From assembly GCA_028278645.1 (NCBI GenBank), contig JANQDZ010000041.1, positions 1-64,000 of the forward strand: a DNA stretch of 64,000 nucleotides, in the 5' to 3' direction. Of the stretch, positions 22,918 through 35,078 are shown piece by piece. Origin of the DNA: Longimicrobiales bacterium (GTDB lineage: Bacteria; Gemmatimonadota; Gemmatimonadetes; Longimicrobiales; Gaopeijiaceae). The notes beneath the pieces were generated by a model, which was not told the DNA's origin, ran no database searches, and saw only the letters and a program-made list of their open reading frames with translations. The number at the start of each line of letters is the position of its first letter. Position 1 is the stretch's first letter. The position numbers and the translations under genes are program-made.

Positions 22918-24090
22918 ATGCCTGGAAAACCCTGGAAAACAACCTCTGGATTTGCGGCGGCCGGTCTACTGTTCTCTCTCCCGGGTTGTTCAGGCACACC
23001 GGCCCAGGAGGTAGGTGTGGCAGGGGACGGCAATCTTCAGGGTGCGTTGGAGGAGATCCGGGCCGAGCACAAGCTCCCAGCCCTGGCGGGGATGTTGATC
23101 GTGGGAGACGAGATCGTGGAGATCGCCGTTGCCGGGGTCCGAGCAAAGGGCGACCCGACCCCTGCGTCGGTGGATGACCAGTGGCACATCGGGTCCAATA
23201 CGAAAGCCATGACAGCCACACTGGCGGGCATTTTTGTCGAAAAAGGTCTGATCGAGTGGAGTACGACGATCGAGGATGTCTTCCCGGAGCTTGGGGGAGA
23301 GATCCGACCCGAGTTCCTGGATGTACGGTTGGACGAGCTCCTGTCCCACACCGCTGGAATCAGCAACAACGTTGGGGAGACACCCTTCTGGCAGATCGCG
23401 TGGGAGTCCGATGCCCCCATCATCGAACAAAGGGACGCCTGGCTCCCTCAACTCCTTTCTCTCGAATCCGGCGCCGAACGTGGAGCGTACTCCTACTCAA
23501 ATAGCGGGTACGTCGTGGCTGGGGCCATGTTGGAGCGACTGACCGGAGATTCTTGGGAGACGTTGATGGAGCGGGAGCTGTTCCTCCCTTTGGGGATGAA
23601 CGGGGCCGGATTTGGACCTCCGGGAGATGAAGAAGCCTCAGCGGATCAACCCAGAGGACACCAGGGTGAAGGCAACTCGGCGCGGCCCGTGTACGGGGAC
23701 AATCCCCCCGCCCTCGGTCCTGCAGGGACCGTGCACGTTCCTCTTCCAGAACATGCTCAGTTCTTGATCGCCCACATGAAGGGCGCCCAAGGGGTGGATG
23801 GACTCGTAAGCGCGGGAACGTTCGAGAAACTCCACACGCCGTTCCCGGAAACGAGCTATGCCCAGGGTTGGGGGGTGGCGGAGCGGGAGTGGGCCCGGGG
23901 CGCCGCGTTGACGCATAACGGCAGCAACACACTTTGGTACCACACCGTTTGGGTGGCCCCGATGAGGGACATTGCCATTGCGGTGGCCACGAACGTCGCC
24001 GGGAACCACACGGCGGAGGTGGTCGATGGGGCGGTGGGTATGATTCTACGTCGATTCGAAGCTTCGGTGGGATCGGGGGGCGGGTCCTAA
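22918..24090 (+). CDS. Class C beta-lactamase-like serine hydrolase lipoprotein
   Basis: A 390-residue exported serine hydrolase of the beta-lactamase/penicillin-binding-protein family. MPGKPWKTTSGFAAAGLLFSLPGC is a lipoprotein signal (lipobox Cys 24, shown in two parts here by residue 20 and on). The catalytic set is SNTK (Ser 93, Lys 96), YSNSGY (Tyr 192 to Asn 194) and a late HNGS in place of KTG. D-aminopeptidase, esterase and beta-lactamase roles are all possible; SxxK plus HxG fits peptidases and esterases at least as well as lactamases. GAGGAG precedes the ATG by seven bases. Confidence 0.8.
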   Translation: MPGKPWKTTSGFAAAGLLFSLPGCSGTPAQEVGVAGDGNLQGALEEIRAEHKLPALAGMLIVGDEIVEIAVAGVRAKGDPTPASVDDQWHIGSNTKAMTATLAGIFVEKGLIEWSTTIEDVFPELGGEIRPEFLDVRLDELLSHTAGISNNVGETPFWQIAWESDAPIIEQRDAWLPQLLSLESGAERGAYSYSNSGYVVAGAMLERLTGDSWETLMERELFLPLGMNGAGFGPPGDEEASADQPRGHQGEGNSARPVYGDNPPALGPAGTVHVPLPEHAQFLIAHMKGAQGVDGLVSAGTFEKLHTPFPETSYAQGWGVAEREWARGAALTHNGSNTLWYHTVWVAPMRDIAIAVATNVAGNHTAEVVDGAVGMILRRFEASVGSGGGS

Positions 24091-24278
24091 AAAAGATCGG
24101 GACCAATACCCGACTTCGATGGACGTTCCATCTGCTGGGAGACCTCTTCCTGGTCTACAATTACAATGCCGTGGACGAAAGCCAGGACCCGGACACCCCC
24201 GGTTCAGGCCTGAATCGCGGTAGACGCTGGGTCCTGGATGGGTCCCAACTCATGCTGAAGGTCCAGTACGCGCTCTGA
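24091..24278 (+). pseudogene. 3' remnant of a DUF5916 gene
   Basis: Right after the serine hydrolase stop, in another frame, IGTNTRLRWTFHLLGDLFLV and YNYNAVDESQ then DGSQLMLKVQYAL end in a TGA. NTRLRW.F..L.DLFLVYN and a final L-K-YA strand are characteristic of the C-terminal end of DUF5916 outer-membrane-type proteins, such as the complete one at 59889-62477. The upstream 800 residues are missing. It is a truncated copy whose 5' part was probably replaced by the serine hydrolase gene. Confidence 0.5.
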
Positions 24279-24340: not shown

Positions 24341-25768
24341 ATGAAGCTCGTTCACACGCCCTGCCTTCTGTTCGCCTTGACGCTTTTGGGCGGCACCACT
24401 TCGCCGGCTTTTGGGCAGGAGAGGGTTTTCGACCCGGAACGGCGACTGGCCGAGCTCGGAATCGAGTTACCCACGCCGCCTACCCCCGTGGCCAACTATG
24501 TGAACGGGGTGCAGACGGGAAATCTGATCTTCCTGGCGGGGAAAGGGCCCAAGTACCCGGACGGGACCGAGTTGCATGGCAAGCTCGGGGCTGAAGTGAC
24601 CATAGAGGAGGGGTACGAGGGCGCGCGAATGACGGCCATCAATCAATTGGCCGTGCTCAAGGCCATGCTGGGAGACCTCTCCCGGGTGAAACGGGTGGTG
24701 AAGGTCCTGGGAATGGTGAACTCCGCTCCCGACTTCGTAGAGCAACCGGCAGTGATCAACGGATTTTCCGACCTCATCGTAGAGGTTTTTGGTGACCGCG
24801 GCAGGCATGCCAGGGCAGCGGTGGGGATGGCGTCGCTACCAAGAGGCCAGTCCGTCGAGATCGAACTTGTGGTAGAGGTGGAGCCTGAGGCCGTCGTGCG
24901 AACGGCGCCAGGAGAGGAACCGCTCGATTTGACCTACTTCGGCTGCGCCGGCTGGCGGATTATGGACGGCAATGTGGTGGTCCTCGTCGACCCCTACATC
25001 TCCCGGTTGAACTACGGGGCCGGGGGTCACCCCGATGACAATCGCACCCATTTTGCCCGGACCGACCTGGCCTGGTCGGACACGGCCCTCATCGACTCCC
25101 ACGTCACCGAAGCCGACTACATCCTGATAACCCACAGCCACTTCGACCATCTAGCCGACGTTCCCTATATCGCCAGGAAAACCGGAGCCAAAGTCATCGG
25201 ACACGAAACCGCCAACTCGATCCTGAGAGCCTACGGGATCCCAGACGAACAGCTCTACACCGTGAAGGGGGGGGAAGACTACCAGTTCGACAGCTTCTCC
25301 GTACGCGTGGTGCCCAGCCTCCATTCGGCCCTGAACGAAAAGCTCTACTACGACTCACGGAGGTACGACGAAGGTTCGAACCTGAAAGCACCGCTCCGCA
25401 TCAACCAGTTCATCGAGGGTGGCACCCTCGCCTTCCTGGCCCGTTTCGATCGTCACACGGTGCTGGCGATGGGAGGTATGAACTTCATCGAGCGGGAGTT
25501 CGAGGGCCTCGAGCCGGATATCCTGTTGGCGGGAATCAACGGCTCACGTATCGGACTCTACGATTATGATAGGCGTTTGTTGAAGGCCACGGGTTTCCCG
25601 CAGGTGGTTCTTCCGACCCACTGGGACAACTTCCGCTATCCCTACGGGTTTTCGCAGCAGGCGAACATCGAGAGGAACATCCTTCCGTTCATCGAGACTG
25701 TGAGGAAGATCTCTCCCGAGTCGACCGTGATTACTCCGGTGCACCTCGAACCAATAAGGATCCGTTGA
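24341..25768 (+). CDS. Secreted fusion of RidA-like and metallo-beta-lactamase-like domains
   Basis: A 475-residue protein. Residues 1-25 are a signal peptide ending near AFGQE. Residues 36-180 form a RidA/YjgF domain: NLIFLAGKGP (61-70) and ARAAVGMASLPRG with Arg at 158, the place of the Arg that binds enamine or imine acids in RidA. From about 196 a metallo-beta-lactamase-like domain (UlaG type) follows, with LTYFGCAGW, VDPYIS and HSHFDH at 265-270, and a late PTHWDNFRYPYG. The fusion of a deaminase-type domain and a hydrolase in one exported chain is unusual; it may act sequentially on one substrate. ATG 24341 has GGGAGG six bases upstream. Confidence 0.8.
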   Translation: MKLVHTPCLLFALTLLGGTTSPAFGQERVFDPERRLAELGIELPTPPTPVANYVNGVQTGNLIFLAGKGPKYPDGTELHGKLGAEVTIEEGYEGARMTAINQLAVLKAMLGDLSRVKRVVKVLGMVNSAPDFVEQPAVINGFSDLIVEVFGDRGRHARAAVGMASLPRGQSVEIELVVEVEPEAVVRTAPGEEPLDLTYFGCAGWRIMDGNVVVLVDPYISRLNYGAGGHPDDNRTHFARTDLAWSDTALIDSHVTEADYILITHSHFDHLADVPYIARKTGAKVIGHETANSILRAYGIPDEQLYTVKGGEDYQFDSFSVRVVPSLHSALNEKLYYDSRRYDEGSNLKAPLRINQFIEGGTLAFLARFDRHTVLAMGGMNFIEREFEGLEPDILLAGINGSRIGLYDYDRRLLKATGFPQVVLPTHWDNFRYPYGFSQQANIERNILPFIETVRKISPESTVITPVHLEPIRIR

Positions 25769-25837: not shown

Positions 25838-27907
25838 ATGGACCGCCGAAGAGTGACGCGGCGGGCGGTTTTCTTTGCGATCACCGTCTCCGTTTTAGCA
25901 GTAGCCGCCCTGGCCCCCACCACCGCCGAATCCCAGGAAGCACGGGTTCTGACACCCCGGGACGTGGCCACCATGAAGTCGGTCACCGGCGTGTTCCCCA
26001 GCCCGGATGGGTCCCGGGTCGCTTTCACCCGGTCTGAGCCAAGGGGCCCTGAAGACGCTCCAGGAGGAGCCTATATATCGCTCTTCATGTTGGCGGGGAA
26101 TCATGGACCTCGGCCCCTTGTCACTGGACCTCGGAGTGTTGGTGGCGTGGCGTGGCATCCGGGAGGCGAGCTTTTGACCTTCCTCGATCGGCGGGATGGG
26201 GATTCCGGTCGGCAGCTCTACGCCCTGTCTATGGCCGGTGGAGAAGCTCACCGGATCTTTGAGGCGGAGGACGGCATCAGCCAGTACCGGTGGCGCCCGG
26301 ACGGAATGGCGGTTGCCTTCACCGCAACCATCCCGGCGCCCGCAGGGCGAGCCGCGGCCAGGAGTGCCGGGTTCGATCAGCGGGTCTACGACGAGGACGA
26401 CAGCAGCTTCGGTCTCTTCGTCTGGGACCACGACACGGGAGAGATCCGCCTGTACGAGTTGCCAGGCAGTGTGATTGACCTGGAGTGGTCCCCCGACGGG
26501 GGCGTCATGGCCCTGGCGGTGGCTCCCACCTCCGGAGTGGACGATGCCATGATGTTCAAGCGGATCCGGATCCTGGACATGGCATCCGGGCGGGTCCAGG
26601 CAACTGTTCAAAACCCGGGGAAGCTGGGTGGAATGGCCTTCTCGCCGGACGGCTCCCAGCTTGCCTACATCGGTGCCGCCGATCCCAGGGATTCTCACGC
26701 AGGTATGCTGTTCATGGTGGGGTCGGGTGGTGGAGACCCCCGATCCCTTACACCGGGCTGGAAGGGCATGGCCCACTCGCTGGAGTGGCAAGACCAGCAC
26801 ACGATCCGGGCTAGAATCAGCCGGGGTATCCAGAGCGCGGTGTCGGACTTCGACGTGCGAGACGGTACCTGGTCGGACCTTCCGGGCCTCGACATGGCGT
26901 TCGGCTCCGTGCATACGGCAGGGAGCAGTGTGTTCGCGACGGTTTCGGGTCCCACCCATCCTTCCGAGGTCTACATCTTTGATGGAACGGAATGGTCACG
27001 GCAGTCCGATTCGAACCCGTGGATGGAGAACGTCAGCCTCACGGCACAGGAGACCTACACCTTCGAGGCCCGGGATGGCCTCGAGATCGAAGGCGTTCTC
27101 CTGTACCCGGCCGGGTTCGTGGAAGGGACACGGTACCCCTTGGTGATCGTGGCCCATGGCGGTCCCGAAAGCCACTACAACAATCAATGGGTGACGGGCT
27201 ACAACACCTGGGGCCAGCTACTCAGCAGTGGGGGGTATTTCGTCTGGTATCCCAACTACAGGGCCAGCACGGGCCGGGGCGTGGAGTTCGCCAAGGCCGA
27301 TCACGGAGATCCCATGGGTGGAGAGTTCGAGGATCACCTGGATGCCATCGACCACTTCGTGGAGCGGGGCTGGGTAGACCGGGATCGCGTGGGAGTCGGG
27401 GGAGGGTCATACGGGGGATACACTGCGGCCTGGGCCGCAACCAGGCACACCGAACACTTCGCGGCGGCTGTGAGCTTTGTCCCCATCACCCACGTACCCA
27501 CGAAGTGGCTCACGTCGGACATCCCTTGGGAGTTCTACTATGTCCACTACGAGGAAGTTTGGCCCACCGACGAAGATCAGTGGGACTTCCTCTCCTCCCG
27601 TAGCCCGCTGACATACGCAGCAAACGCTCGGACCCCGCTACTCCTGGCGGGTGGAACGGCCGATCCACGGGTGCACCCGAGCCAACCGTTTATGTTGTAC
27701 CGAGCCGTGGAAGCCTCCACCGATACCCCCGTGCGGTACATCCAATATCCGGGGGAGGGGCACGGGAACCGGGTGAGCACGCACCGATACGACTACATGC
27801 TCCGGGCCCTCCGTTGGTTTGACCACTATCTGAGACCCGGGGATCACCGCGGTGACGCGCCACCGCCCGTAGACGTTGACTACGGCGTCTGGATGAAAGG
27901 GAGGTAA
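25838..27907 (+). CDS. Exported S9 family prolyl oligopeptidase-like peptidase
   Basis: A 689-residue exported serine peptidase. After the signal peptide (about residues 8-30) come beta-propeller type repeats with PDG turns (PSPDGSRVAFT, RWRPDGMAVAFT, EWSPDGGVMALA, FSPDGSQLAY), then the alpha/beta-hydrolase domain from about 430. GGGSYGGYTAAWAATRH sets the nucleophile Ser at 524, GGTADPRVHP the Asp at 609 and GEGHGNR the His at 642. It would act on oligopeptides as acylaminoacyl- or dipeptidyl-type peptidase. ATG 25838 has GGAGG six bases upstream. Confidence 0.9.
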   Translation: MDRRRVTRRAVFFAITVSVLAVAALAPTTAESQEARVLTPRDVATMKSVTGVFPSPDGSRVAFTRSEPRGPEDAPGGAYISLFMLAGNHGPRPLVTGPRSVGGVAWHPGGELLTFLDRRDGDSGRQLYALSMAGGEAHRIFEAEDGISQYRWRPDGMAVAFTATIPAPAGRAAARSAGFDQRVYDEDDSSFGLFVWDHDTGEIRLYELPGSVIDLEWSPDGGVMALAVAPTSGVDDAMMFKRIRILDMASGRVQATVQNPGKLGGMAFSPDGSQLAYIGAADPRDSHAGMLFMVGSGGGDPRSLTPGWKGMAHSLEWQDQHTIRARISRGIQSAVSDFDVRDGTWSDLPGLDMAFGSVHTAGSSVFATVSGPTHPSEVYIFDGTEWSRQSDSNPWMENVSLTAQETYTFEARDGLEIEGVLLYPAGFVEGTRYPLVIVAHGGPESHYNNQWVTGYNTWGQLLSSGGYFVWYPNYRASTGRGVEFAKADHGDPMGGEFEDHLDAIDHFVERGWVDRDRVGVGGGSYGGYTAAWAATRHTEHFAAAVSFVPITHVPTKWLTSDIPWEFYYVHYEEVWPTDEDQWDFLSSRSPLTYAANARTPLLLAGGTADPRVHPSQPFMLYRAVEASTDTPVRYIQYPGEGHGNRVSTHRYDYMLRALRWFDHYLRPGDHRGDAPPPVDVDYGVWMKGR

Positions 27908-29125: not shown

Positions 29126-30436
29126 ATGAAGAAACAGCCGTGGTTGGTCATTCCCTTTCTCCTCTCCCTTGTCGTCCCCTTGGGGTGCGGGCCAACGGCC
29201 GACTCCGAGACGGAGGAAGCTCTCGTCGCAAGGGCCCGGGGAATCCATGAACGGGTCATCACCCTCGACACCCACATCGACATCAACACCAGGAACTTTA
29301 CGCCTGAGAGGAACTACACGATGGACGTGGGGACCCAGGTTGACCTGCCAAAGATGGAGGCCGGCGGCCTGGACGTGGCGTGGTTTGTCGTCTATGTGGG
29401 CCAGGGGGAACACTCCGAAGAGGCTTTTGCGGCCGCTACCGAAGGGGCATTGGCCAAGTTCGAAGCCATTCATCGCTTGGCGGAGGAGTTCGCGCCGGAC
29501 CGGATCGAGCTTGCTTACACCTCCGACGACGTTCGGCGGATCGCAGCGACGGGAAAGAAAGTGGCCATGATCGGCGTCGAAAACGGGTACTCTATCGGCT
29601 CGGATCTCGGGAACATCAAGAGATTTCACGATCTGGGAGCGAGGTACCTATCCCTCTCCCACAATGGCCACAGTCAGCTTTGCGATTCCAACACCGGAGA
29701 GAGGGACGGGGTATGGCTCCACGGTGGGCTGAGCGAGCTGGGTCGCGGAGCGATTGCGGAGCTAAACAGGTGGGGCATCATGATCGACCTGTCTCACCCC
29801 TCCCAGGAGTCGAATGCCCAAACCATCGAGCTTTCCAGGGCTCCGGTCATCGCCTCCCACTCGTCCGCAAGGGCACTCAGTGACGTAAGCAGGAATCTCT
29901 ACGACGAGGAACTCCTCGCCATCAAGGAGAATGGCGGTGTTGTGCAAGCCGTGGCGCTCGGGAGCTACGTCAACCAGGAGAAGGGGCAAGCTCGTCGGGA
30001 GGCGCTCAGCGGCGTACGGGAAGAAGTGGCGGAGGAGATGGGGTTTGAGCTGATGGAACGATCGGCCCTCCGGGACCTCAGCGAGGCGGAGATCGAAGCC
30101 TACTTCACCGGCATGCAGGCCGTTGAAGAAGAAGTGGACAAGCGGGCAGAGGAGATGGCTGATGTGGCAGCTCCTGTGGACGTGGCCGACTTCGTCGACC
30201 ACATCGACTACATGGTCGACCTCATCGGCCTGGATCACGTGGGTATTAGCTCCGACTTCGACGGGGGCGGCGGTGTAGTCGGCTGGAGCGACGCGTCGGA
30301 GACCTTCAACGTGACGCTGGAGTTGGTACGGAGAGGGTATTCCGAGGAAGAGATAGGGCAGCTCTGGAGCGGGAATCTTCTCAGGGTCCTGGATGAGGTC
30401 CAGGAGATTGCCCGCCAGATCCAGGCGGAGGGTTGA
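29126..30436 (+). CDS. M19 membrane dipeptidase (lipoprotein)
   Basis: A 436-residue dizinc dipeptidase. The signal FLLSLVVPLGCG gives a lipobox Cys near 19. LDTHIDIN holds the first His/Asp pair, AMIGVENGYSIG the Glu, YLSLSHNGHSQ the His block, and IDLSHPSQ and ASHSSARAL the later His residues; the GLDHVGISSDFDGGGGV block carries the final Asp. It would hydrolyse dipeptides, including some D-amino-acid ones, in the periplasm. GAGGTGA lies upstream of the ATG at normal distance. Confidence 0.9.
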   Translation: MKKQPWLVIPFLLSLVVPLGCGPTADSETEEALVARARGIHERVITLDTHIDINTRNFTPERNYTMDVGTQVDLPKMEAGGLDVAWFVVYVGQGEHSEEAFAAATEGALAKFEAIHRLAEEFAPDRIELAYTSDDVRRIAATGKKVAMIGVENGYSIGSDLGNIKRFHDLGARYLSLSHNGHSQLCDSNTGERDGVWLHGGLSELGRGAIAELNRWGIMIDLSHPSQESNAQTIELSRAPVIASHSSARALSDVSRNLYDEELLAIKENGGVVQAVALGSYVNQEKGQARREALSGVREEVAEEMGFELMERSALRDLSEAEIEAYFTGMQAVEEEVDKRAEEMADVAAPVDVADFVDHIDYMVDLIGLDHVGISSDFDGGGGVVGWSDASETFNVTLELVRRGYSEEEIGQLWSGNLLRVLDEVQEIARQIQAEG

Positions 30437-30478: not shown

Positions 30479-31012
30479 CTATCCGGGGCCTGCGGCGATC
30501 CAGCTGTCGTAGGCCCCGGATCCGTTCTGGGTGACTTCCTCCCTGCCGTTCATCGACAGGGTTTTCCCGGTTGAATCGATAATGATGAGTGTAGGCACCC
30601 ACTGTACTCCGAACCTCTGGGCCAGGGTATTGGGCCTTCCGCTCTGGGACGAGACCGCGAGCCACGGCATCCCCGAGTCTGTCATGAAGTCGAAAAGGAA
30701 TGTGTCGCTGACTCCGTGGACGGCGAGGACCACTTCGAATGATCGGCCCTGGGTTTCCAGGTCGTTGTAGGCTTCCAGAAGCACGGGGGAAAAGGCTATA
30801 CAGGCCGGGCAGGTCGGGGAGGCGAAGTAGATCCCGATAACGGATGTGCTTTGTAACACACCGATACCCACCTGGCTCCCGTCCGCCTTGTAGAGCTGGG
30901 TCCCGAACAGGTCTGAGAGGGTGACGGGTCCAGTGTCCGGCGTCGTCGGCCCGCCGTCCCCGCACGCCGAAACCGCGCATGCGATCAGGATCGCTACAGC
31001 TATGATTCTCAT
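30479..31012 (-). CDS. Thioredoxin-like lipoprotein (TlpA/nucleoredoxin type)
   Basis: A 177-residue protein with a lipoprotein signal (IAVAILIACAVSAC, lipobox Cys 17) and a thioredoxin fold: VIGIYFASPTCPACIAFSP contains the redox CPAC pair, with FGVQWVPTLIIID the cis-Pro block. A partner in periplasmic thiol exchange is likely. Its ATG overlaps the TGA of the M24 peptidase gene (ATGA), so it is the last gene of the unit that begins with the Asp-box protein. The C-terminal SWIAAGPG is followed by a convergent gene. Confidence 0.8.
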   Translation of the reverse strand: MRIIAVAILIACAVSACGDGGPTTPDTGPVTLSDLFGTQLYKADGSQVGIGVLQSTSVIGIYFASPTCPACIAFSPVLLEAYNDLETQGRSFEVVLAVHGVSDTFLFDFMTDSGMPWLAVSSQSGRPNTLAQRFGVQWVPTLIIIDSTGKTLSMNGREEVTQNGSGAYDSWIAAGPG

Positions 31013-32460
31013 CGTATCAGGTAGAACTTCCTCGGATAGCCATCAACGAATCGAGCCCCTTCGATCGTGAACACGGCCTGTTCCTCCAGGCCCATGGACA
31101 CCTCCACGCCACCCCACTCCGGTATATCTGCCGCCACCGAGAATTCCATGGCGTAAACAGTGTTTAGGTGAAGGGGGTGTTCACCGGTTCCGGGGACGAA
31201 TTCCTGTTTCTCGCTCATGCCAATCATGGTCCCGGAACCATGGCCGTATGGCCCGACAGGGTGGGTATACACCCTGGGTCTCAACCCTTCGGCCCTGCCC
31301 CGCTCCAGAATGGATGCCAGGATCTCGTTCCCCGTCCGCCCTTCCCGCATTTCCTGGAGATGGATCTCTTGGAGCCGATTCCCTCTGCGGAGTAGCTCCT
31401 TCAGTCCCGCAGGCGGTTCCGTTTCACCGAGCCGAAGCACATAGGCGTTGTGCTGCATGTCGGTGTTTAGGCCCAAGTACGTGATGCCGACGTCACAGTG
31501 TAGGAGGTCGCCCCGGCGGATCACATTGTCTCCCCTCCCGTACTCCTCCGCATCAGCCGGCGAACGCCGGATATCGATGGAGGGATGGAACCAGGTATCG
31601 AGGCCGAGGTCGTTGATGCGCTGGCGGATCCACCATCGAACGTCATCGGATGTCGTCACGTCGGGAGTGATCACCTCATTCGAGAAAAACTCCCCGATGA
31701 GATCGTGGGCGATTCCGGCGAGATGCCGGTAGAGGCTGAGTTCCTGAGGGCTCCGGGTCTCGTACCACCGTATGGCGATTGTCTCGCCCGAGACCAGTCG
31801 ATCGAGGTACCGATCGTCCAAGGCTTGTTCGAGCAGGTCCTTGTGGAAAGCTGAGAGCCCGTTCCCATGAGCGAACTCGTCGACGTAGTCGTAGTGGGGA
31901 GCGTAGTTAATGGCGATCCTCTGCGGATCCTGCTCCCTTATGTACTCGGCTAAGGCGGTGAACTGGTGGTTCGCACCCTTTGACCGGTCTGTGAAGATGT
32001 TCTCATACATCGGCCCGGCCGATCCTGAGCCGTGCCAGTTCGCCGTCAATTTCTTGAAGCCGTCGGCGCCATCGTGGAAAGCCAGGATGGAAAGGCGTCG
32101 GGCACTCATGATGGGCTCCGGCACCAGCGTCATATAAACCGGATCCTCGTCATACTCGAAGTTGATGACCACCCACATGTCGACGCCCTCTTCCCGCAGG
32201 ATGGTCGGGAGGATGTTATCGAGTCTCCACTCCAGGATTTCGTTGTAGATGCGGGCACGCTCCCGGAGCGACAGGATCTTCTCGATATCACCAGCGTCTG
32301 AGATCTCCCACCCCGGGGCGAACTGCCTATCGCCGTTGGCCTGACCGGAAAGAGCGGCCCAGGGGAAGCTCAGGGCCAAGGCCAGGGCCAGAAAGACAGC
32401 GACGGTCGGTATCCTGATAGCGGGAATGAATGAGGTCAGGGTACGATCCCGCGCCTTCAT
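31009..32460 (-). CDS. Exported M24 family metallopeptidase
   Basis: A 483-residue Xaa-Pro-aminopeptidase-like protein. N-terminal signal peptide (VFLALALALSFPWAAL), a creatinase-type N-domain, then the pita-bread domain from about 230: HCDVGITYLGLNTDMQHN carries the two metal Asp, PVGPYGHGSGTM the His, and VEVSMGLEEQAVFT plus YAMEFSVA the two Glu. Substrate unknown; relatives release N-terminal residues next to proline. It overlaps both neighbours by ATGA, in the same order as the Asp-box gene and the thioredoxin-like gene. Confidence 0.85.
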   Translation of the reverse strand: MKARDRTLTSFIPAIRIPTVAVFLALALALSFPWAALSGQANGDRQFAPGWEISDAGDIEKILSLRERARIYNEILEWRLDNILPTILREEGVDMWVVINFEYDEDPVYMTLVPEPIMSARRLSILAFHDGADGFKKLTANWHGSGSAGPMYENIFTDRSKGANHQFTALAEYIREQDPQRIAINYAPHYDYVDEFAHGNGLSAFHKDLLEQALDDRYLDRLVSGETIAIRWYETRSPQELSLYRHLAGIAHDLIGEFFSNEVITPDVTTSDDVRWWIRQRINDLGLDTWFHPSIDIRRSPADAEEYGRGDNVIRRGDLLHCDVGITYLGLNTDMQHNAYVLRLGETEPPAGLKELLRRGNRLQEIHLQEMREGRTGNEILASILERGRAEGLRPRVYTHPVGPYGHGSGTMIGMSEKQEFVPGTGEHPLHLNTVYAMEFSVAADIPEWGGVEVSMGLEEQAVFTIEGARFVDGYPRKFYLIR

Positions 32461-35078
32461 GATGGCCTCCTTCTTTTGTCGGGCACAACAATCACGGCCT
32501 GGTCCGTCTCCAACCCTCGGGCCAGGAGCCGAACCGTGAACCGACCCGGTTCCACGTTGACCAGCCGAGGGCGCCGGCTGCGTCCTTCCTCTTCGGCTCC
32601 CACACTGTCGGGCATTATCCGGAGATCCCAGGCGATGCGGTTGATCCCCGGACGGTCGGGGCCCTCCAACTCCCGAATCACCTCACCGGTCTCGTCCAGG
32701 ATCTGGATCGAGACCCGGGCAGAGTCGGGAGGCGTGTCCCGGTGCGGGCCGTCCTTCAGGTAGTAGGTGATCAAGGCTCCGTATTCGGGATTCGGTCCTG
32801 CGTAACGGGCAGCCCTGTTGTGGGGATTCTGTGTCCGGAGATGGTGCTGCTCCGTTTCCCGTATCGGAAAGAGATGGGCGTCCTGGGCCATAACTTCATC
32901 GGTCATCCCTTCGAGGAAGACGATGTCATCCATGATGATGATGCCCCGCCCGTAGGTTCCCAGAACAAGGTCGCCATTCTTGATGCGGATGTCGGTCACC
33001 TGGACCGGCGGCAGGTTGCCCCCAGCCCGGGTCCAACTCTCTCCCCCGTCAACCGTGAACATGAGCCCGGTGTGGATCCCTGCGAAGAGGACATCCGGGT
33101 TCTCCGGGTGCTCCGCCACCCCCATGATCACCGCTTCGTCCGGCATGCCGTGGGAGATCCGCTCCCAGGATTCCCCGGCGTCGGTGGTTTTGAAGAGGTG
33201 AGGACGGAAGTCGTCGTGAAAGTGTCCTGAGAAGGCGATGTAGGCCGTATGCGCTTCCGTGGAGGAGGCGAGGACGTCCGCCACGTATCGCCCCGGCCCC
33301 TCGAGGTCGAACCGGTCGGAGAGGGGATCCCAGGTGACGCCCCCGTCCGTGGTCCGATGGACGCTACCGTCATCGGCCCCCACATAGATCAAACCCTGCT
33401 GCAGGGGGGATTCGGTGATAGCTGTCAGGGTGTTGAATTCCTTCAAGGACGGCTTCAGCCCCATGATCTCCCAGTCCGAGGGGGTCTCGTCCTTCGTGAG
33501 GTCCTCGCTGAGAACCTCCCAGTTTTCACCCTTGTCTGTCGTCTTGAAGAGCTTGTTCCCGCCGAAGTACATGACGTCGGGATCGTGGGGGGAGATGAGG
33601 ATGGGGCTGTTCCAGTTGAATCGGTACCTCTCGGTGGTGTCCGGCGGGGTGGGTTTGATTCCGGAGGACTCACCCGTCACCAGATCCACGCGCCTTAAGC
33701 CACCGAACTGGGATTCGGAGAAGACCACAGAAAAGTCCCTTGGGTCGATTGCGGGCGCGAACCCGTCTCCACCTCCCACCACCATAACGTCCTCATTCTG
33801 GATCCCGTTGCTGGAGTAGGTTCTGGACGGAAGTCCCCAAGTGCCGTTGTCCTGGAGTCCGCCGTACACGTGGTAGGGATCCCGGTCGTCCACTTCGATG
33901 GCGTAGAACTGGGCGATGGGGATGTTATTGAGGAATCTCCAGGTCTTGGCCCCATCATAGGTGATGTGGAAACCACCGTCGTTTCCAAGGAGCATGTGAT
34001 CGGTGTTTTCCGGGTTGATCCATAGGACATGGTGGTCAACGTGAATGCCCCGGGCCGTCCAGTCGTTCTCGAAGGATCTTCCTCCGTCGATGGAAACGTC
34101 CAGCATGGTTCCCATGACCCAGACTTTGTTCTCATTCACCGGATCGACATAGATGTTGCCGTACCAGTACGACGTCCGGATATCGTTGACCCGTTCCCAA
34201 CTCTCCCCTCTATCTTCCGACCGGAAAAGACCACCGTCACTGTCACCGATGGCCGCGTACACCACATTCGGGCTGCTGGGGGCTATGGCCATGGCGATCT
34301 TCCCGAGGTTCCCCTCCGGGAGCCCACCTCCCAGCCTGTCCCAGGTGTCCCCTCCGTCCATGGATCGGTAGATGCCCGAGTGGGGCCCGCCGGTGAGGTT
34401 GCCCCAGGCGTGACGCCGGCGCTGCCATGCCGCGGCATACAAGATCCGGCCGTTCCCCTCCATGGCGACCTCGGTTACCCCGGTATCATCGTTGATGAAA
34501 AGGACGTTCTCCCAGGTCAAGCCGCCGTCGCGGGTCCTGTACAGGCCACGCTCTTCGTTCGGGCCCCACCGGTGACCGGAAGCGGCCACGAAGACGATGT
34601 CGGGATCGGTGGGATGAATGGCGACACGGTTGATGAACCGGGTATCCCTCAGACCCATGTTCTCCCAGCTCTCACCCCCGTCCAAGGAACGGTACACACC
34701 GTCGCCCAGGGATCCGGCCTGCTGTTCCCCGTTGGCCTCTCCGGTTCCGACCCAAAGGATCAGCGGATCGGAAGGAGCGATGACCATGTCACCGATGGAC
34801 AGGGTTGTTCCCGCTTCGTCGAAGACCGGCCTCCAGGTCACGCCGTTGTTTGTGGTCTTGAAGATTCCGCCGGTAGAGCCGGCGACGTATATGACGGCGG
34901 GGTTTTCAGGAACGGCTTCGACGTCGGGTATACGCCCGCCGAAGACCGCAGGGCCGATCTCCCGCCACTCCAGGTGCTGGAAGTAGTTCTTCGGGAGTTC
35001 CTCCTGGGAAAAAGCTCCCGTTGGGAGGCACAGGAGGAGGAGGGTCATCGTCAGCCTGGAGGTGCTCTTTCCGACCAT
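32457..35078 (-). CDS. Asp-box/VPS10-like beta-propeller protein
   Basis: An 873-residue exported protein. After a signal peptide (TMTLLLLCLPTGAFS) it has about eleven Asp-box repeats of the form S-D-G-G-x-[ST]-W (TTNNGVTW, SLDGGESW, TRDGGLTW, SMDGGDTW, SEDRGESW, SIDGGRSF, TTDKGENW, TTDGGVTW, TTDAGESW, TVDGGESW), making sortilin/sialidase-like propellers. The C-terminal part after about 720 forms a beta domain (VSIQILDETGEVIRELEG). Such proteins are very common in these bacteria and their ligand is unknown; sialidase activity is not supported. It starts the three-gene ATGA-coupled unit with the M24 and thioredoxin-like genes. ATG 35078 has only a weak ribosome-binding site. Confidence 0.85.
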   Translation of the reverse strand: MVGKSTSRLTMTLLLLCLPTGAFSQEELPKNYFQHLEWREIGPAVFGGRIPDVEAVPENPAVIYVAGSTGGIFKTTNNGVTWRPVFDEAGTTLSIGDMVIAPSDPLILWVGTGEANGEQQAGSLGDGVYRSLDGGESWENMGLRDTRFINRVAIHPTDPDIVFVAASGHRWGPNEERGLYRTRDGGLTWENVLFINDDTGVTEVAMEGNGRILYAAAWQRRRHAWGNLTGGPHSGIYRSMDGGDTWDRLGGGLPEGNLGKIAMAIAPSSPNVVYAAIGDSDGGLFRSEDRGESWERVNDIRTSYWYGNIYVDPVNENKVWVMGTMLDVSIDGGRSFENDWTARGIHVDHHVLWINPENTDHMLLGNDGGFHITYDGAKTWRFLNNIPIAQFYAIEVDDRDPYHVYGGLQDNGTWGLPSRTYSSNGIQNEDVMVVGGGDGFAPAIDPRDFSVVFSESQFGGLRRVDLVTGESSGIKPTPPDTTERYRFNWNSPILISPHDPDVMYFGGNKLFKTTDKGENWEVLSEDLTKDETPSDWEIMGLKPSLKEFNTLTAITESPLQQGLIYVGADDGSVHRTTDGGVTWDPLSDRFDLEGPGRYVADVLASSTEAHTAYIAFSGHFHDDFRPHLFKTTDAGESWERISHGMPDEAVIMGVAEHPENPDVLFAGIHTGLMFTVDGGESWTRAGGNLPPVQVTDIRIKNGDLVLGTYGRGIIIMDDIVFLEGMTDEVMAQDAHLFPIRETEQHHLRTQNPHNRAARYAGPNPEYGALITYYLKDGPHRDTPPDSARVSIQILDETGEVIRELEGPDRPGINRIAWDLRIMPDSVGAEEEGRSRRPRLVNVEPGRFTVRLLARGLETDQAVIVVPDKRRRPS

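Follow-up and report, generated by a model that had tools for sequence, protein, structure and literature searches.

A single intact open reading frame of 475 amino acids, with no internal stop codon in its translation, was found at positions 24341-25768 on the forward strand of the window, the whole stretch of 64,000 nucleotides that was analyzed. GGAGG is located about 8 nt 5' of the ATG start codon. Based on the reading frame, Pfam matches and a structural model, the gene was divided into a signal peptide, a Rid1-like domain, a linker and a domain with metallo-beta-lactamase (MBL) fold, followed by the stop codon. The putative Sec signal peptide is encoded at 24341-24418 (+), with an approximate cleavage site between MKLVHTPCLLFALTLLGGTTSPAFG and QE, an assignment based on visual inspection and a hydrophobicity rule. 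The AlphaFold2 model contained two confident domains (mean pLDDT 89.2) joined by a low-confidence linker at residues 184-190 (pLDDT below 50). A fold search with this model returned Rid structures (3d01 and PA0814) and hydrolases of the UPF0173 type. Judging from the putative Sec signal, the gene product may be a single exported bifunctional hydrolase, located in the periplasm or on the cell surface.

Upstream, positions 22918-24090 (+) encode a predicted exported serine hydrolase (PF00144, the beta-lactamase/esterase family, 2e-42), a possible partner of the fusion. Downstream of the fusion gene by 70 bp, and perhaps co-transcribed with it, is a gene for an S9 prolyl-oligopeptidase-family peptidase at 25838-27907 (+) (PF00326, 3.8e-45). 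A lipoprotein-like M19 membrane dipeptidase, a relative of renal dehydropeptidase, is encoded at 29126-30436 (+) (PF01244, 2.8e-87), and M19 genes also adjoin predicted exported Rid genes at two other loci (L224 and L225). A short frame 5' of the fusion gene, at 24090-24278 (+), matched no Pfam family. Its end is beta-barrel-like (LVYNYNAVDE...LMLKVQYAL), and the frame is perhaps the remnant of a gene for an outer-membrane beta-barrel protein. At 30479-35078 (-), thioredoxin-like, M24 peptidase-like and sortilin/BNR propeller genes lie in a row, and relatives of these genes adjoin the fusion gene in G001 (L163).

The two domains

The Rid domain (residues 29-182, 24425-24886, +) passed the Pfam cut-offs of both YjgF_endoribonc (PF14588, residues 33-166, E = 3.6e-21, 75.9 bits against 35) and Ribonuc_L-PSP (PF01042, 4.4e-13, 49.7 bits against 27.3). 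Together with the fold match to 3d01 and PA0814, this places it in the Rid superfamily. In an alignment with 3d01, PA0814, ACIAD3089 and 3k0t, Tyr53, Arg158 and Glu173 of the fusion coincided with residues that are conserved among Rid proteins of known structure. Arg158, the equivalent of RidA Arg105, was invariant in the wider alignment A3, as expected of the deaminase-competent group formed by RidA and Rid1-3. A score of 38 bits with TIGR00004, against a cut-off of 106.25, excluded RidA proper. RidA (YjgF), the archetypal enamine/imine deaminase, shares the fold and the conserved Tyr, Arg and Glu with the Rid half, but is a cytoplasmic single-domain protein. The nearest characterized relatives were PA0814 of P. 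aeruginosa (4.5e-27) and ACIAD3089 of A. baylyi (3.2e-18), and by pairwise nearness to these two the Rid half is closest to the Rid1 proteins, in which the Arg is also kept. According to the available part of one report, PA0814 and ACIAD3089 act in vitro as deaminases of 2-aminoacrylate and amino-acid imines, and a ridA mutant is rescued by them (PMC5619798). Rid1 proteins are small and single-domain, and the same part of that report mentions neither export nor an MBL partner for them.

The MBL-fold domain (residues 191-475, 24911-25765, +) was assigned from alignments, fold matches and the Pfam families Lactamase_B_3 (PF13483, 6.8e-11, residues 197-403) and Lactamase_B_2 (3.5e-9). The metal motif H265-x-H267-x-D269-H270, followed by H328 and H427, was invariant or nearly so in alignment A2 and has the HxHxDH and two later histidines of MBL-fold hydrolases. 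The best sequence and fold matches were UPF0173/UlaG-like hydrolases (TM_1162, 7e3v and Igni18), which have HxHxDH and the later histidine ligands in common with the fusion. The identity to them was about 20%, however, and the bridging Asp of UPF0173 (GD motif) is replaced by Gly379 in the window fusion and by Ser in most relatives. Predicted export and fusion to Rid also distinguish the domain from these hydrolases. Assignment to the UPF0173/UlaG type with bridging Asp was rejected on the missing residue and on a PRK00685 score of 57 bits, where the cut-off is 144. By motif inference, the metal-ligand layout without a bridging Asp recalls class B3 metallo-beta-lactamases, but a class B beta-lactamase was likewise rejected (25 bits, against 100 for the core model and 240 for B3).

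The initial annotation had described a RidA domain with its binding Arg and an intact HxHxDH metal domain within one secreted chain. The single reading frame, the predicted signal, the Rid fold, Arg158 and the metal ligands all agree with this description, and the RidA label was changed to Rid1-like.

Recurrence of the fusion and its separate relatives

The same fused frame was found in four more Gemmatimonadota genomes (G001, G014, G006 and G123), giving five genomes from three genera. Among them are a second genome of the window genus, with a fusion 82% identical to that of the window, one genome of a second genus (G014) and two single-contig genomes of a third (G006 and G123). A predicted signal with clear n, h and c regions was present in all five fusions, as read by eye and with a home-made hydrophobicity rule. 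Comparison between the fusions gave dN values of 0.07-0.14 for the Rid half and 0.08-0.19 for the MBL half, and dS was about 1.1 or higher in each half. Both halves, with dN/dS of about 0.05-0.1, are under strong purifying selection. The linker (residues 183-190, 24887-24910, +) had a high dN between fusions and was unconstrained, and no second signal peptide was found at the Rid-MBL junction of the fusions.

In Bacteroidota, Rid and MBL are encoded by separate neighbouring genes, in the order Rid then MBL, at no fewer than 11 loci. Each usually carries a predicted export signal, mostly a lipoprotein lipobox for Rid and a Sec signal for MBL. The functional link between Rid and MBL is strengthened by these more distant relatives, because their genes are separate but adjacent and mostly predicted to be exported. 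At one locus (L002) the Rid and MBL genes are in frame, with a single stop and a few codons between them. This pair and the separate Bacteroidota genes are what a merger of two genes by sequencing or assembly error would predict, but the chance of such an artefact is negligible, because four other genomes have the same fusion and purifying selection acts on both halves, and because two of the five genomes are single contigs and the junction has no second signal peptide. No frameshift between the domains was found, and the concern that all near relatives might have separate genes was met by the nearest relatives being fused, with separate genes in more distant ones.

Identity between the two phyla was 73-87% for Rid and 55-63% for MBL, the Rid half being the better conserved. 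Among 55 related Rids with at least 54% identity, a simple hydrophobicity/lipobox rule predicted a signal in 49. Of 12 Rids at 44% identity or less, none genuinely had a signal, the one that was flagged (L063) being an over-extended frame. In a quick tree, a clade of 20 rows (support 98) united the fused Rids with those Bacteroidota Rids that adjoin MBL, and was nested within a larger group of predicted exported Rids with modest inner support. The position of the fused Rids in this tree and their identity between phyla suggest a transfer between the phyla, the direction of which is not pressed. Many flavobacterial genomes carry MBL without a nearby Rid, and the MBL protein can therefore presumably work alone. 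Rid without MBL was seen in some cases, such as L053 and G380.

Gene families around Rid and MBL

Gene families were clustered around 72 loci. In 40 of these, a gene for a predicted exported FG-GAP propeller of about 373 aa was found near MBL, usually directly adjoining it, and in 11 a creatininase-family gene. In two Saprospiraceae (L012 and L045) the FG-GAP, Rid, MBL and creatininase genes form one run, and in G014 and G006 the start of the FG-GAP gene overlaps the stop of the fusion gene. In the window genome no FG-GAP gene adjoins the fusion. On contig 19 of that genome, an FG-GAP gene adjoins a predicted exported creatininase-family gene (L180:6472-8875), as is also the case in G001, and the module is split over two loci in the window genome. 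Rid and creatininase genes are neighbours in six Gemmatimonadota (G007, G192, G202, G258, G280 and G299), and MBL, FG-GAP and creatininase genes in G163. Rid, MBL, the FG-GAP propeller and a predicted exported creatininase constitute a recurring module.

Among 395 Gemmatimonadota genomes, all module pairs co-occurred above chance, in counts that ignore relatedness. Counted in the same way, without regard to relatedness, MBL at 69% identity or more was present in 13 of the 395 genomes and was accompanied by Rid in all 13 (2 expected), and by FG-GAP and creatininase in 10 each. Creatininase relatives and FG-GAP occurred together in 35 of the 395 genomes, against 6.3 expected, relatedness again being ignored. 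The module neighbourhoods also contain predicted exported amidohydrolases, M19, M20 and M28 peptidases, and transporters of the DASS, TRAP and amino-acid permease types.

The FG-GAP propeller was 40-70% identical between the two phyla and gave a confident model (pLDDT 91). A strictly conserved NGRHW motif was observed in the propeller at L164:6092-7231 (-) and at 40 related loci. Assignment to a known enzyme was rejected, as the fold search returned generic propellers (CRTAC1, fungal lectins and integrins, with aldos-2-ulose dehydratase lower). No substrate was adopted from the creatininase, for which the best models, MftE, creatininase and IolN, were all below cut-off. In G006, a gene for a PLP dehydratase (PALP) without signal peptide ends on the start of the fusion gene. 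Its best model was EutB, and a hydroxyectoine pathway was rejected on the score (324 against a cut-off of 413) and on its occurrence in only one genome. A tryptophan dioxygenase gene and a flavin monooxygenase-like gene on the opposite strand in G006 were judged to be chance neighbours.

Possible roles of the fusion

Rid proteins are familiar as protectors of the cytoplasm from enamines formed by PLP enzymes, and are not known to be active outside it. A conserved exported Rid clade tied to particular hydrolases would, if true, place enamine chemistry outside the cytoplasm, as a pathway step rather than as housekeeping. The initial annotation had proposed a two-step or protective reaction outside the cytoplasm. 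What was borne out of this is the pairing itself, which is real, conserved and, as far as the sequence tells, extracytoplasmic. A survey of the Rid family describes subfamilies and tandem Rid fusions, and mentions neither the periplasm nor metallo-hydrolases (PMC4433059). An exported Rid, a Rid-MBL fusion or a Rid-creatininase link was not found in the open-access literature, and subscription papers may differ. Both folds are known, but as far as we can tell there is no earlier description of the predicted export, of the fusion or of the module. The in vivo substrates of Rid1-3 proteins are a stated gap, being largely unknown (PMC4433059; PMC9714295), and the exported fusion and its module bear on this gap. 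The fusion and the four-gene runs provide a short list of partners, which opens the substrate and the pathway to direct search.

A plausible, though still tentative, explanation is that the exported fusion couples metal-dependent hydrolysis to imine hydrolysis, within an extracytoplasmic module for amide hydrolysis and enamine deamination. Exported amidohydrolases, dipeptidases or a PLP lyase would release an enamine or imine outside the cytoplasm from a compound of the amide, lactam or dehydroamino-acid type. In the Rid domain, Arg158 would bind the carboxylate during hydrolysis of this intermediate, which would yield ammonia and a carbonyl compound. The MBL domain, with its three-His plus Asp-His-His site and no bridging Asp, would perform the adjoining hydrolysis of a ring, ester or amide. 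Fusion would keep both steps together and secure their joint export, and the products could be taken up by anion, TRAP or amino-acid transporters of the kinds found in related clusters.

With somewhat more hesitation, a whole extracytoplasmic enamine/imine pathway may be proposed for Bacteroidota and Gemmatimonadota, in which the intermediate would come from exported amidohydrolases or from a PLP ammonia-lyase exported by Tat, and a distinct exported Rid clade, fused to MBL in some lineages, would deaminate it. Predicted exported Rids of a sister clade, 66-68% identical to the window Rid, were found in three flavobacterial genomes. In each, a lipoprotein Rid directly adjoins a DgaE/SelA-like PLP enzyme with Tat signal and a second Rid with Tat signal (L220:4115-5824, L221:3540-5326 and L226:6101-7858), the Tat signals being read by eye from motifs. 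Apparently, an exported PLP ammonia-lyase-like enzyme is here accompanied by two exported Rids. If the signal motifs are read correctly, Tat would export the PLP enzyme folded and with its cofactor bound, and such an enzyme would be a direct source of enamine outside the cytoplasm. A comparable set is the ong cluster of marine chitin-oxidizing bacteria, in which a Rid (OngD) is accompanied by a de-N-acetylase and by a PLP enzyme that releases ammonia; the available part of the report states that growth on one amide substrate requires OngB, OngC and OngD (PMC9537276). Unlike the proposed module, OngB and OngC are predicted to be cytoplasmic, and MBL, creatininase and FG-GAP are not mentioned in that part of the report.

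RidA is reportedly an oxidant-activated holdase chaperone. It is conceivable, but unlikely, that the exported Rid acts in this way or only quenches incidental enamines and imines outside the cytoplasm, with an independent MBL domain that merely shares its signal. The known roles of Rid proteins are in damage pre-emption (PMC4433059), and the occurrence of each protein without the other also fits such protection. However, Rid and MBL are fused or adjacent and, in both phyla, occur together with the same creatininase and FG-GAP genes, which argues for one pathway, and the PLP-enzyme targets of 2-aminoacrylate are mainly cytoplasmic. That the Rid half is a non-catalytic trimerization or ligand-binding module for the MBL enzyme is improbable. 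Rid proteins form trimers (PMC4433059) and MBL is the part most often found alone, but Tyr53, Arg158 and Glu173 are kept, and Rid is better conserved than MBL between the phyla even as a separate protein. Drug or toxin defence, in which MBL would open a lactam ring, for example one of carbapenem-like type, and the enamine or imine product would be hydrolyzed by Rid, is brought to mind by the B3-like metal ligands and by the PF00144 and M19 genes on either side of the fusion gene, but is very improbable given class B scores far below cut-off, a UPF0173-like MBL domain and module partners that look catabolic.

Returning to the proposed coupling of the two hydrolytic steps, not all steps need take place in one compartment, because two flavobacterial Rids that adjoin a predicted exported MBL (L028:949-1434 and L048:4980-5474) have no signal peptide, like the PLP dehydratase of G006. 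At L048 the neighbouring creatininase and racemase are also without signal, although related loci encode the racemase with a lipobox.
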